From Micavibrio sp. (GTDB lineage: Bacteria; Pseudomonadota; Alphaproteobacteria; Micavibrionales; UBA9664): 64,000 nucleotides of DNA. Of the stretch, positions 50,063 to 56,060 are shown piece after piece. The stretch is taken from NCBI GenBank assembly GCA_002699085.1, contig PAAR01000015.1, positions 1 to 64,000 of the forward strand, given 5' to 3'. Numbering within the stretch: position 1 is the stretch's first letter; each line of letters begins with the position of its first letter. The notes under the pieces are model-generated. The model searched no databases. It saw nothing but the letters and a program-made list of their open reading frames with translations, and had not been told where the DNA came from. The position numbers and the translations under genes are program-made.

Positions 50063-51232
50063 ATGGCAAGACCCGAAGGGCACTTACGTGTCATGATGAG
50101 CGCACGCGTGCTTCTAAACCTAGAAGAAGCGGACGTTATTTTTAAAACAGCATATGAAAAAACCTATGCTGAAACCCGTGATAAAACACAAGCACATACG
50201 GATGCTGTCACAGCGTATATAGCCTATGTTTGCCCTAAAGAAGGCAGCAAAGACTATGACCCTGAAACAGGTGGCCGACGCTTTGAGAAAGGCCCGCTTT
50301 TTGATCTCGCTGAAGCCCTTATCGCTTTAAATGCTGTTTCAAAAGAATCACTTATTGAGTTAATCATCAGTGCTAAAGATGAAAACCAATCTGGCGATGT
50401 TATTTTTAGAAATATTGATCTATTAGGGAGCGCCGCTTTCCGAAATGCTGGTGTACAAAGGCTGACGACCGCAGGACGCGATTTAAGCGAAGCAATTCAT
50501 ACCGTTTATGACACTGATTTATTGTTTAGCCGTAATGATAAAGATGTTCAGACAGCTACTGATTTAGGTATCGCCGCCACAACGATTTACTATACACCGA
50601 CAGGTTTCGAGTACAAAGAGCCCAATGAAAACAAGCAAGTTAAATTGTTCTTTGACGGAGATGCCGTCGCCTTCGGTTCAAGTTCTGAAGTAAAGTATCG
50701 TAAAAATGGTCTTGATGCCTATACACAATCTGAATTTGAAGATTTTATGAAAGATATTGAGCCAGGCCCTTTCTCCGCTGTCTTAGCAAAAATATCAGCC
50801 CTCAATGAACGCTTCCCTAAAGATAAGCAGCCATTCGAGCTATCACTTATCACTGCACGAGGCGGTCCTTCGCATTCTCGTGCCTTGGCCGTGTTGAAAA
50901 AGCTCGGCATTAAAGTGAATGGGATAACCTTAGGGCGAGCAGGCGCAGATAAGGGTAAGGTTTTAGAAGCCTTCAAACCAGCTCTATATTTAGACGATCA
51001 ATTCACGCATCTAAGCCACGGTGCTCAATTTTGTCCAGTAGGTCTCGTACACTACCCAACTGGCAGCCCTATGCATGAATTTCTACAAGGTGCTAACATC
51101 CCGCCAGAAATAGCTAAAATGCGTCAAGCTGAGAAACCAGAAGCTCAAGAAGAATTTAGTAAGGTTGCCGCTAAACCCGCCTCAAAACGTACAAGAAAAC
51201 CTAAATCAGCAATGGAAACAGGACCAGCCTAG
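50063..51232 (+). CDS. 5'-nucleotidase, cytosolic cN-I family
   Basis: This 389-residue protein matches the 5-nucleotidase family PF06189: RVLLNLEEADVIF at the start, RNIDLLGSAAFRNAGVQRLTTAGRD with the next segment, FFDGDAVAFGSSSEV (HAD-type Asp motif), and ITARGGPSHSRALAVLKKLGIKVNG. These enzymes dephosphorylate nucleoside monophosphates such as AMP. The tail (about 355-389) is Lys/Ala-rich (KPASKRTRKPKSA) and probably disordered. The ribosome site AGGGAG is well placed. Its stop overlaps the convergent coiled-coil gene by 4 nt. Its position near guaB fits nucleotide metabolism. Confidence 0.85.
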   Translation: MARPEGHLRVMMSARVLLNLEEADVIFKTAYEKTYAETRDKTQAHTDAVTAYIAYVCPKEGSKDYDPETGGRRFEKGPLFDLAEALIALNAVSKESLIELIISAKDENQSGDVIFRNIDLLGSAAFRNAGVQRLTTAGRDLSEAIHTVYDTDLLFSRNDKDVQTATDLGIAATTIYYTPTGFEYKEPNENKQVKLFFDGDAVAFGSSSEVKYRKNGLDAYTQSEFEDFMKDIEPGPFSAVLAKISALNERFPKDKQPFELSLITARGGPSHSRALAVLKKLGIKVNGITLGRAGADKGKVLEAFKPALYLDDQFTHLSHGAQFCPVGLVHYPTGSPMHEFLQGANIPPEIAKMRQAEKPEAQEEFSKVAAKPASKRTRKPKSAMETGPA

Positions 51233-52035
51233 CCTAGTCTGGGCTTTAGGTTAGGGTCTTCTATTTTAACATTGGCTACATGTACAAGAACTAAATGCGT
51301 TTCCCATTTAGAGGTCATTGCATTAATTCTTTTTAAACGCCGCTGAACAACTAATTCAGAGTGAATTTTTTTACCGTTAGGAAAACGTTTAATATTGGAA
51401 TTAATATCTTGGTCAATGCCCCACAACAATTCTCTTAAGAAATTTTGGTTAAGTGCCCTTAAATAAGGCGTGTTACGCCAAATCCCTTCTTGATCTTCGA
51501 ATGCCTCATTAGGCTCTAACCCTACAAGCATTTTAAAATCTTCTTCAGTGATATCTGTTCTTTTAAATGTATGATATTTCAAATGGTCATTCTGAAAAGT
51601 TGCGGATAATGCGCTCCCTCTTTTTTCTTTAGTTGTTAGTGTAGCGCTTTCATAATTATAAGAAGCCTGTGAAGCACGTGACTGTAGTTCTTTTATTATC
51701 TTTCGAGCAATCTTCTTTTGATTATTTTTATGCATAGTAGCGACTTCTGCGTCTTTACGTTGCTGAACATTAATAGCGGCTTGAGCCTCACGCTTTTGTT
51801 TTTCTTCAGCACGTCTTTTTTCATTTGTAATACGCTTTTTAGCTCTATTTTCTTTAGCGATGGCTTTGTGCCGATCTCTATAATCTTGCTCAAAGCTCCA
51901 TGAAGCCACGTGCTGAAATCGGCTATTTATAGCACTGCCAAAAGCGGACATATGCTTGTTAAACTCAGCACTAATCCGACGCGGCAAAGACCACACCGAA
52001 GCACCAAATCGAAAGACTTTACTTAAATTATTCAT
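51229..52035 (-). CDS. Uncharacterised basic coiled-coil protein
   Basis: I do not recognise this 268-residue protein. The ATG at 52035 (MNNLSKVFRFGASVW) follows AGGGA; an alternative GTG lies 27 codons upstream. Residues about 50-120 form a very basic, charged helix (KENRAKKRITNEKRRAEEKQKREAQ and following) likely to be a coiled coil or RNA-binding arm. The C-terminal half is globular, with a LRELLWGIDQDIN segment and a final VQRRLKRINAMTSKWETHLVLVHVANVKI. No signal peptide or clear membrane helix. It is divergent from guaB. Confidence 0.6.
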   Translation of the reverse strand: MNNLSKVFRFGASVWSLPRRISAEFNKHMSAFGSAINSRFQHVASWSFEQDYRDRHKAIAKENRAKKRITNEKRRAEEKQKREAQAAINVQQRKDAEVATMHKNNQKKIARKIIKELQSRASQASYNYESATLTTKEKRGSALSATFQNDHLKYHTFKRTDITEEDFKMLVGLEPNEAFEDQEGIWRNTPYLRALNQNFLRELLWGIDQDINSNIKRFPNGKKIHSELVVQRRLKRINAMTSKWETHLVLVHVANVKIEDPNLKPRLG

Positions 52036-52108
52036 TTTTATTTTCCCTGTTTCTTTCCATATATAGGAAAGAAAACACAATGAGTCAAATAATGGTTCCT
52101 TAACCTGA

Positions 52109-53644
<1,536 letters not shown>

Positions 53645-53713: not shown

Positions 53714-53762
53714 TAGCATAAATATCAAATTGAGGCCTTAAAGCCTCAGCCTTACTATGCTA
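53714..53762. repeat. Nested inverted repeats between guaB and the methyltransferase gene
   Basis: An outer pair TAGCATA (53714-53720) / TATGCTA (53756-53762) encloses an inner near-palindrome TGAGGC (53731-53736) / GCCTCA (53743-53748). It lies between convergent genes and could act as a weak bidirectional terminator, although T-runs are short (AATTTGATATTT on the minus strand). Confidence 0.45.
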
Positions 53763-53811: not shown

Positions 53812-54720
53812 TTAAGAAGCGGTTTTCAAAACACACAACTTAATGGGATTGTTTTTTTCTTCATAAATTGAGACAACATCAAAACCAGCCTCATTTGCTA
53901 TTTTTATATTATCTTCCAATGACAATTTAATTGAGTTATTGAAACAAAAACGGTCCCCAACTCGAATAGTAAAACTTTCATTATTTATAAAAAACTTTTG
54001 GGCTTCTTTTGCGATAAAAATATGTTCAAGCGTCGATGTCTCTTGGTTCCAATGAACATCAAATAAAAACTTTTCAGGATCAATATTAGTCAAGCAATCT
54101 CGCTGTAACCGCTTTAGCATATTTATAGCCAAAGCCGTCTGTCCTGCATATGCCCTCTCAATTGATCCTTTATCTTGGTTTGAATCAAAGGTTGTAACCA
54201 AGTACCCTTGGTTAATTTGTCTTCTAAGACTTACAAGCTTTTCTTTTATCACATTAAGTAATTTACCCCGATTTTCGGCACTTTCCTGATTGAACAATGT
54301 TAATCCAAACATAACCATTAAAGGTATATCACTAGATCTGTAAGTGATTGCACCCTTATAAAAATCAGCCTTATATTTCCTTAACCTTATATGAGGCAAA
54401 GATTTTTGTATGCTACTCTCGGCGTTATCCAAATGTTCCTGTGATATATCAACGGCTATATATCCCTTAGTTTCACCTAATAATTTTAAAAAAGGCACAG
54501 TTTTATTTTGTATAGCAAAATCTGTTCCTGGCCCTAATTCTATAACAGTAGCCACCCCACTCAGTTTCTGACTTATTTCTGGAGCATATTGCTGAATAAT
54601 TTTTATCTCGTCGTTTAACACATAGTATTCTTGGCTTTGATTGAGAAAATCCAACCATATTTTTACCCCATCTAAAGGATCGCCTTCAAACATAGGATCA
54701 AGATACTCAAAAGCTCCCAT
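53812..54720 (-). CDS. EgtD-like (Methyltransf_33) SAM-dependent methyltransferase
   Basis: This protein of about 302 residues resembles histidine-specific methyltransferases (EgtD, PF10017): YLDPMFEGDPLDGVKIWLD and SQEYYVLNDEIKII resemble the N-terminal domain, then ATVIELGPGTDFAI and YIAVDISQEHL form the SAM site. Later come FGLTLFNQESAENRGKLL and LVTTFDSNQDKGSIERAY. EgtD makes hercynine for ergothioneine, but no egtB-like gene is nearby and the sequence is divergent, so the substrate is open. The ATG at 54720 follows AGGGG; a TTG at 54837 would overlap the upstream regulator gene by 38 nt. It is AT-rich and paired with an XRE-type gene, and lies close to ahcY, which removes the SAH it would make. 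Confidence 0.75.
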   Translation of the reverse strand: MGAFEYLDPMFEGDPLDGVKIWLDFLNQSQEYYVLNDEIKIIQQYAPEISQKLSGVATVIELGPGTDFAIQNKTVPFLKLLGETKGYIAVDISQEHLDNAESSIQKSLPHIRLRKYKADFYKGAITYRSSDIPLMVMFGLTLFNQESAENRGKLLNVIKEKLVSLRRQINQGYLVTTFDSNQDKGSIERAYAGQTALAINMLKRLQRDCLTNIDPEKFLFDVHWNQETSTLEHIFIAKEAQKFFINNESFTIRVGDRFCFNNSIKLSLEDNIKIANEAGFDVVSIYEEKNNPIKLCVLKTAS

Positions 54721-54799
54721 ATGACCCCTACTTTTTTTCGAAAATAATAAAATTGCCGCAGCGGAAAGAGCTTCTGAAAATGAATTGTCTTGAGATATA

Positions 54800-55444
54800 T
54801 TAAAGTGCGATAGGCTCAATAGCTCGCTCCCATTCAAAATTAAATTTCTGCCTGTGATAATCTGCTAAAATTTGATCTTTAGTAACATATACAACAACAT
54901 TTTCTGCTTGGAATATAATGGTTGCCACTTTCTTTCCGTATATATAGTAAGTAATAGCATCAAAACGGTCCGCACTAGACCATTTATAAATGGCATATTT
55001 GCTCGCCACAAAATTTGAATCGCCTTCTTTAACCAATATTTTAAACTGATAATTAGTTAGAGATGACATTCGCTGCATATGTGCATCTGCTTCATCACCT
55101 TGCCATTTTAAAAATAAAGATTCATCGACATTATTAACGCATATCTCACCGCCTACTACTGATATCGTAGCGTATACATCTCTAATAAAATCAACAAAAC
55201 CTTTCTGACCAGAATAAACTTGTGTGTGGCCTGATATAGGTTGGATCCCGCCCTCTTCGGTAAATTCGTAATTCTTAGCTTCCATGTAGGCAATTATTTT
55301 TTCAGCTGTTTTAAGCGTAACTCCAGCCTCTTCTAACTCAATCATTTTGAGCAGTGGAACAGAAATACCACAATTGTTCGAAAACTCACTCTGGTTTTCG
55401 CGCGTAATAGCTCTGGCTGCTCTTATTTGCGCCGCATTGATCAT
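54800..55444 (-). CDS. XRE-type transcriptional regulator with C-terminal sensor-like domain
   Basis: This 214-residue protein starts with a helix-turn-helix (INAAQIRAARAITRENQSEFSNNCGISVPLLKMIE) of the XRE type. The remaining 140 residues form a separate domain ending in YYIYGKKVATIIFQAENVVVYVTKDQILADYHRQKFNFEWERA. That ending recalls the degenerate phospholipase-D/TrmB-like ligand domain found at the end of several HTH regulators (pattern memory only). A GGGGGG ribosome site precedes the ATG. It is immediately upstream of the EgtD-like methyltransferase, and its 3' end may overlap it, so the two probably form one operon under autoregulation. Confidence 0.7.
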   Translation of the reverse strand: MINAAQIRAARAITRENQSEFSNNCGISVPLLKMIELEEAGVTLKTAEKIIAYMEAKNYEFTEEGGIQPISGHTQVYSGQKGFVDFIRDVYATISVVGGEICVNNVDESLFLKWQGDEADAHMQRMSSLTNYQFKILVKEGDSNFVASKYAIYKWSSADRFDAITYYIYGKKVATIIFQAENVVVYVTKDQILADYHRQKFNFEWERAIEPIAL

Positions 55445-55642
55445 TTATTTTATTTCCCCCCTTTAACTATCAGCGATAATAGCATATAAAGAACGCTTTT
55501 TAAAATTAAAAATATATTAAAAACAATTTTTGAGATTAAAAAAGTATAAAAAAACAAACAAAATGTATAATTTTAACGATTTATTAACTTATTTAACATA
55601 ATTTAAGACAATCGAAATTGAAATTTTGCTGGAGGCAGAAAA

Positions 55643-56020
55643 ATGAAACAGTTAAAAGAAATCAGAAAAATGAATAATATCATTGCTTTGGGCGACCCAC
55701 GCACCATTACCGAAGCTTCAAGCCAGCTAAATGACAAAGAAAGTGACCTACAATATTTCGATGTTAAATTCTGGGTTGATGAATGCCACACACAACGAGA
55801 ACAGGTTGAAGACATCATTTCACAAATTCGCCAGACAAAAGAAAGCCAGCCTATCCGTAAGCGTATTTCAGTCCTAGCCCTCCGCCAAGAACTTGCGCTC
55901 AGCTGGAAACGCTATAAACAATGCCACAAGCGTACGACAAAACTATACAATCAATATATGACTCAAATTGACAAACCACACCGATACAATCAGGACATAT
56001 CCGTCAGCATTGCGGCTTAA
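55643..56020 (+). CDS. Small uncharacterised helical protein
   Basis: A 125-residue protein with a strong GGAGG ribosome site 8 nt before the ATG. It is mostly charged and helical (WVDECHTQREQVEDIISQIRQ, ALRQELALSWKRYKQCHKRT) with no signal peptide or membrane segment. No family recognised. It stands alone after a very AT-rich 200-nt spacer shared with the divergent XRE gene, and a hairpin terminator follows it. Possibly a small cytoplasmic regulator. Confidence 0.6.
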   Translation: MKQLKEIRKMNNIIALGDPRTITEASSQLNDKESDLQYFDVKFWVDECHTQREQVEDIISQIRQTKESQPIRKRISVLALRQELALSWKRYKQCHKRTTKLYNQYMTQIDKPHRYNQDISVSIAA

Positions 56021-56036
56021 ATATCCCAGAATAAAA

Positions 56037-56060
56037 AAAGAGGCCGAAATCGGCCTCTTT
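56037..56060 (-). terminator. Intrinsic terminator downstream of ahcY
   Basis: A 10-bp stem AAAGAGGCCG / CGGCCTCTTT with a 4-nt loop is followed on the minus strand by a run of Ts (CTCTTTTTTTATT). It is 22 nt past the ahcY stop codon. On the plus strand it also lies just after the 125-residue gene and may stop that transcript too. Confidence 0.85.

Follow-up and report, generated by a model that had tools for sequence, protein, structure and literature searches.

The 64,000-nucleotide stretch of Micavibrio sp. DNA analyzed here (hereafter the window; contig PAAR01000015.1, assembly GCA_002699085.1) carries, between guaB and ahcY, two adjacent minus-strand genes coding for a helix-turn-helix (HTH) regulator and an EgtD-like methyltransferase. 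The features of this locus are:

54800-55444 (-), regulator gene, 214 aa, with an XRE-type HTH and a predicted PLD-like C-terminal domain
55235-55444 (-), part of the regulator gene for the DNA-binding domain (residues 1-70), which in relatives stays with the chromosomal site; the residue-70 boundary is transferred from the alleles of two relatives described below
54800-55234 (-), part of the regulator gene for the PLD-like C-terminal domain (residues 71-214), inferred to be a ligand-recognition domain, which in relatives travels with the enzyme
53812-54837 (-), EgtD-like (PF10017) SAM-dependent methyltransferase, 341 aa from a TTG start at 54837 that overlaps the regulator gene by 38 nt; the start is uncertain, as a second TTG at 54819 (335 aa) has GGGAG just upstream
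53812-55234 (-), predicted exchangeable block from regulator codon 71 to the enzyme stop codon, by homology to alleles of relatives
55445-55642, divergent intergenic region, 20.7% GC, presumed promoter/operator of the regulator
55643-56020 (+), divergent gene for a small helical protein (125 aa, YFDVK motif), a possible target gene or a site marker
53731-53748 (-), terminator-like hairpin downstream of the methyltransferase (TGAGGC...GCCTCA)
56037-56060, bidirectional terminator-like hairpin between the small gene and ahcY

The regulator-methyltransferase pair between guaB and ahcY

The first-pass annotation had described this pair as an HTH protein with a sensor-like C-terminal domain and a divergent histidine-methyltransferase-type enzyme, more AT-rich than its neighbors, lacking egtB, and flanked by nested inverted repeats on one side and an AT-rich divergent promoter region on the other; this observation is confirmed. 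The methyltransferase matches PF10017 with an e-value of 8e-41 (140.5 bits against a gathering cut-off of 23), and the pairing recurs in other genomes, so that neither of the conditions set beforehand for rejecting the proposal is fulfilled. The methyltransferase gene is the most AT-rich of the 46 ORFs of 150 aa or more in the window (34.3% GC against a median of 41%), whereas the HTH gene has 37.1% GC. Inverted repeats do lie on the guaB side; however, these are mainly one terminator-like hairpin along with short repeats that are not clearly beyond chance, and a promoter scan of the locus gave no excess of promoter-like matches. Another AT-rich ORF (51229-52116 (-), 36.8% GC, 295 aa) without a Pfam match lies on the other side of guaB. 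The annotation missed the divergent helical-protein gene, a second regulator copy elsewhere in the genome and the exchange of enzymes seen in relatives.

Its interpretation, an acquired small-molecule or self-regulated methylation module, is only partly supported. An HTH plus EgtD-like methyltransferase module without egtB, with a C-terminal domain of the TrmB type, and its mobility are borne out: the sister species has guaB and ahcY in the same arrangement but with an EamA transporter gene between them, so the pair was gained or lost at this spot. The AT-richness is real, but it is weaker evidence of acquisition than this missing ortholog. However, the methyltransferase is not the defining part, being one of at least eight enzyme classes that occupy the same slot; hence, a self-regulated methylation module is too narrow a description, and we rejected a two-gene methylation module as the unit.

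The window regulator has no Pfam match of its own, including to the TrmB winged-HTH domain PF01978, although a relative matches HTH_3. An AlphaFold model built from 85 relatives has a mean pLDDT of 96: residues 1-70 are predicted to fold like the restriction-modification controller protein C.Kpn2I (4yba, Z 11.6), and residues 71-210 to adopt the phospholipase-D-like fold of TrmBL2 (5bpd, Z 13.0; 5bpi, E 3.4e-7), NucT (Z 13.1) and relatives. The catalytic HxKx4D (HKD) motif is absent from all 85 members. The protein ends at the PLD-like domain: TrmB (2f5t) aligned only over 110-243, which lies before its sugar-contacting residues Gly320 and Glu326 (PMC4158304). Thus, ligand binding is an inference and not a consequence of the fold.

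Searches with PADLOC and PHROGs models gave only weak, generic or unexplained hits (in PADLOC, only generic HTH models, 4.2e-5 at best), and an exact-peptide scan found no viral relative of the methyltransferase; hence, we rejected a phage or defense origin. In one genome, a 283-aa gene following a regulator has a weak match to the Thoeris inhibitor Tad4 (5e-4, below cut-off). No model in the libraries searched covers the regulator as a whole.

Pairing of the regulator with diverse enzymes

Full-length relatives of the regulator were found in 120 of 142 genomes of the Micavibrio order, with up to eight per genome, as well as in some other small-genome alphaproteobacteria and a Kordiimonas, but were rare in a phylum-wide sample. 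The window's own genome has a second copy (67974-68594 of another contig) with an LPG-synthase-like partner; the sister species has the corresponding pair (regulators 41% and enzymes 34% identical) next to a conserved helicase-like gene (60%). A profile search further recovered two TrmB-type regulators from the DPANN archaea (Nanoarchaeota and Woesearchaeota) sharing the C-terminal domain at 35-39% identity, suggesting transfer between domains of life or an old shared domain.

To examine this linkage without selecting on the regulator, we started from the enzymes. In the order, 28 of 28 PF10017 genes with sequence upstream have the regulator directly before them on the same strand, the 29th being cut by a contig end; similarly, a separate search for cyclodipeptide synthases (CDPSs) gave 28 loci, all 28 of which have the regulator immediately upstream. 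Conversely, of 172 unique regulators, 141 are followed within 150 nt by a same-strand ORF of at least 100 aa, 67 of them overlapping or abutting, while about 29 have no obvious partner. The partners comprise PF10017 (61), formyltransferase-like (14), GNAT (11, plus 2 larger ones), TPMT-like methyltransferase (11), CDPS (7), LPG-synthase-like (4), another class I methyltransferase (3), an unknown family (2) and 26 others. The unknown family, of about 315 aa and with no Pfam match, sits directly after the regulator in two genomes, and in another genome one regulator is followed by tandem PF10017 methyltransferase genes or fragments (four hits in a row). Pfam searches confirmed representatives, though some only weakly: LPG_synthase_C is below cut-off for several members, and the TPMT label rests on a weak hit, with general methyltransferase models scoring better. 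Single cases include PALP, SHMT, aminotransferase, 2-hydroxyacid dehydrogenase and ATP-grasp proteins, some of which may be chance neighbors; ORFs were called by a simple longest-ORF rule.

These are one-step enzymes, mostly of amino-acid or aminoacyl-tRNA chemistry, whose catalytic sites look intact where inspected. Formyltransferase N158, H160 and D196 are invariant, as are S32, E174 and E175 of the CDPSs, which also have a YPG motif, like the XYP subfamily of PF16715 (PMC5816076; this overview does not mention regulators). In EgtD structures, the carboxylate of histidine is held by Tyr206, Ser284 and Tyr56 and its alpha-amine by Asn166 (PMC8593015). A profile alignment places Y230, S302, Y71/Y72 and N183 of the window enzyme at these positions, and the SAM-binding glycines are also kept; however, Glu282, next to the imidazole, corresponds to Asn300 and is not conserved in relatives. 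We therefore predict an alpha-amino-acid N-methyltransferase rather than an ergothioneine enzyme. Consistent with this, the protein fails the EgtD equivalog cut-off (TIGR03438, 112.9 against 290.9 bits), members of this family are only about 20% identical to each other, and no egtB (TIGR03440) was found in the genome, nor any over cut-off in the 142 genomes of the order. Eight of these genomes have proteins of about 720-745 aa matching the EgtB model weakly (about 170 bits), perhaps OvoA-like and separate from the module.

Exchange of the C-terminal domain together with the enzyme

Three chromosomal sites could be recognized by their flanking genes, namely oligopeptidase A, mutM/groEL and a Tad-pilus region, each of which carries several enzyme types; site labels could be given to 68 of the 172 loci. 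An initial tree of full-length regulators suggested clades by enzyme type (12 changes) and thus swapping of whole pairs, but splitting the protein showed that only the C-terminal half follows the enzyme. The HTH-half tree needs 3 changes of site (shuffled mean 30.6) but 47 of enzyme type (shuffled 51.7, minimum 47), whereas the C-terminal-half tree needs 8 changes of enzyme type, the minimum possible for nine types (shuffled 51.8), and 11 of site (shuffled 30.2). These were FastTree trees on 65 and 140 columns, and the result was stable to resampling of columns and to cutting the C-terminal half to the same length. At 80-90% HTH identity, the C-terminal identity is 0.56 for same-enzyme pairs and 0.34 for different-enzyme pairs, and 28 same-site pairs with different enzymes have at least 85% HTH identity but a mean of 32% in the C-terminal half. 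The positions that best separate enzyme types lie in the C-terminal half (0.316 vs 0.039 bits) and peak at residues 102-111 and 164-168, at strand ends of the model. Within the PF10017 alleles, enzyme similarity also follows the C-terminal half rather than the HTH half (partial r 0.31 vs -0.10; 0/500 permutations), though formyltransferase and GNAT alleles did not show such co-divergence in small samples.

The cleanest case is a pair of genomes of the order, G068 and G069, which carry a PF10017 methyltransferase and a GNAT, respectively: they align over 5.75 kb at 94.6% identity up to regulator codon 70, are unalignable through the rest of the regulator and the enzyme, and align again over 5.85 kb at 93.6% starting at the enzyme's stop codon. 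Likewise, three genomes of one genus, G011 (methyltransferase), G013 (formyltransferase) and G012 (CDPS), share 97-98% of the HTH half and 15-33% of the rest, with a conserved terminator right after the enzyme. These observations concern relatives; relatives of the window's own family number only two genomes, and no second allele is known at the window's own site.

Oligopeptidase A (an M3 peptidase), which we considered as a functional partner, is present upstream with every enzyme type at its site and is thus a site marker. Small divergent helical proteins with a [YF]-x-[DA]-[VL]-K motif stand opposite the regulator at many loci, but they belong to several families and are absent at the oligopeptidase A and mutM/groEL sites, arguing against a three-gene module; the window protein, modeled as two long helices (mean pLDDT 78), gave no match to a known fold. 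At the Tad-pilus site, a tRNA-Val gene lies a few hundred bases or more beyond the enzyme in three genomes of one genus.

Inferred function and alternative explanations

The sequence comparisons thus establish a regulator that is co-directional with, and usually within 50 nt of, a single small-molecule enzyme, and the replacement across relatives of the C-terminal domain plus enzyme as a unit behind a conserved DNA-binding domain at fixed sites. What follows is inferred from sequence alone. The simplest account is that the C-terminal domain recognizes something specific to the enzyme: its product, its substrate or the enzyme itself. We prefer product recognition, though we hold it only about as likely as not, because the domain is predicted to be a compact PLD-like fold, the type-determining positions cluster at strand ends, similar C-terminal domains (53-58% identical) pair with unrelated enzyme folds, and all major partners make small molecules in one step. 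In this view, the enzyme would make a small molecule in one step from an amino acid or aminoacyl-tRNA (in the window, an N-methylated alpha-amino acid other than hercynine), and the C-terminal domain of the same allele would bind it and alter DNA binding by the HTH at a site-specific operator, controlling its own operon and perhaps the divergent small gene and others. This would resemble an autoinducer synthase/receptor pair whose pherotype-like alleles define signaling groups, with a product that may leave the cell or may act as an intracellular messenger.

Taken furthest, and more tentatively, this would be a previously undescribed class of chemical communication in the Micavibrio order, most of whose known members are predators, with one regulator family reading signals made by many unrelated enzyme chemistries (N-methyl, N-formyl and N-acyl amino acids, cyclodipeptides) and signaling groups created by exchanging cassettes of sensor domain and synthase. 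If the sensor reading holds, the alleles are a natural series of matched sensor/enzyme pairs in one regulator scaffold covering at least eight chemistries, which would make the question of how receptor and signal specificity change together directly testable and give a parts set for engineered biosensors. It would also bear on the question, raised by the Micavibrio genome paper, of whether these predators sense quorum at all: M. aeruginosavorus has been reported to carry LuxI/LuxR-type quorum-sensing genes of unclear role (PMC3189940), from which the present system is separate. Even if the ligand model is wrong, the exact exchange of a regulator's C-terminal half with a downstream enzyme, leaving the DNA-binding half and flanks about 95% identical, is an unusual mode of regulator evolution that needs an explanation. 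We found no paper joining these enzymes with such a regulator, in a literature search that did not cover most subscription journals and preprints.

Two alternatives explain parts of the pattern, though both appear less likely. In a toxin-antitoxin system, the regulator would be an XRE antitoxin neutralizing its partner through the C-terminal domain, with the enzymes (GNATs, formyltransferases, CDPSs, LPG-synthase-like proteins) being toxins acting on amino acids or aminoacyl-tRNA. The gene order and overlap, the several copies per genome, the many partners that could act on aminoacyl-tRNA and the finding that the two enzyme classes tested never occur without the regulator, while the regulator does occur alone, are in line with this, and a toxin-binding C-terminal domain would fit the cassette exchange equally well. 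However, the C-terminal half is predicted to be a well-folded domain and not a disordered or short toxin-binding tail; EgtD-like, TPMT-like, SHMT, aminotransferase and PALP enzymes are not known toxins; no antitoxin family beyond generic XRE was matched; and the pairing of similar C-terminal halves with unrelated enzyme folds is hard to reconcile with specific protein-protein neutralization. Alternatively, in an inducible detoxification or metabolite-response cassette, the regulator would sense an external amine or amino-acid analog that the enzyme methylates, acetylates or formylates. Regulator-enzyme operons are common for this purpose, amine-modifying enzymes are a shared theme, and enzyme exchange with a related regulator could mean different chemistries on a shared substrate. 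Against this, CDPSs make compounds from aminoacyl-tRNA rather than detoxify, resistance enzymes usually also occur without the regulator, in contrast to the 28 of 28 linkage seen twice, and fixed sites with exact exchange of the C-terminal half plus enzyme are not typical of resistance cassettes.

Ergothioneine or hercynine synthesis is very unlikely: the PF10017 match and the conserved residues contacting the alpha-amine and carboxylate favor it, but it is contradicted by the equivalog score, the absence of egtB and the replacement of Glu282. An assembly artifact or chance neighbors are also very unlikely: although most genomes are MAGs and partner calls used a simple ORF finder, the pattern recurs in scores of independent assemblies, including three single-contig genomes, and at two loci per genome-led enzyme search without exception, and breakpoints fall at the same codon in several pairs.

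Among described systems, the TrmB/TrmBL2 regulators of archaea similarly have an HTH followed by a PLD-like domain, but the DNA-binding domain here is of the XRE/Cro type, the sugar-contacting part is absent, and the regulator is coupled to an enzyme. LuxI/LuxR and other synthase/receptor pairs share the one-gene synthase adjacent to a one-component regulator, orphan regulators and several pairs per genome; however, no LuxR autoinducer-binding domain or LuxI-type synthase was matched by Pfam, and the inferred synthase slot is filled by many unrelated folds. In the ComQXP, agr and comCD loci, the sensor part and the signal-making gene vary together at a fixed locus while the output part is conserved, and strains of different pherotype respond to their own signal (PMC4408185); those are peptide signals with histidine kinases and one synthase family, whereas here there is a one-component regulator with at least eight enzyme classes. 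Finally, XRE antitoxins and controller proteins (C.Kpn2I, HipB) share the HTH domain but not the additional PLD-like domain, and the partners found here are not kinases, nucleases or restriction enzymes.
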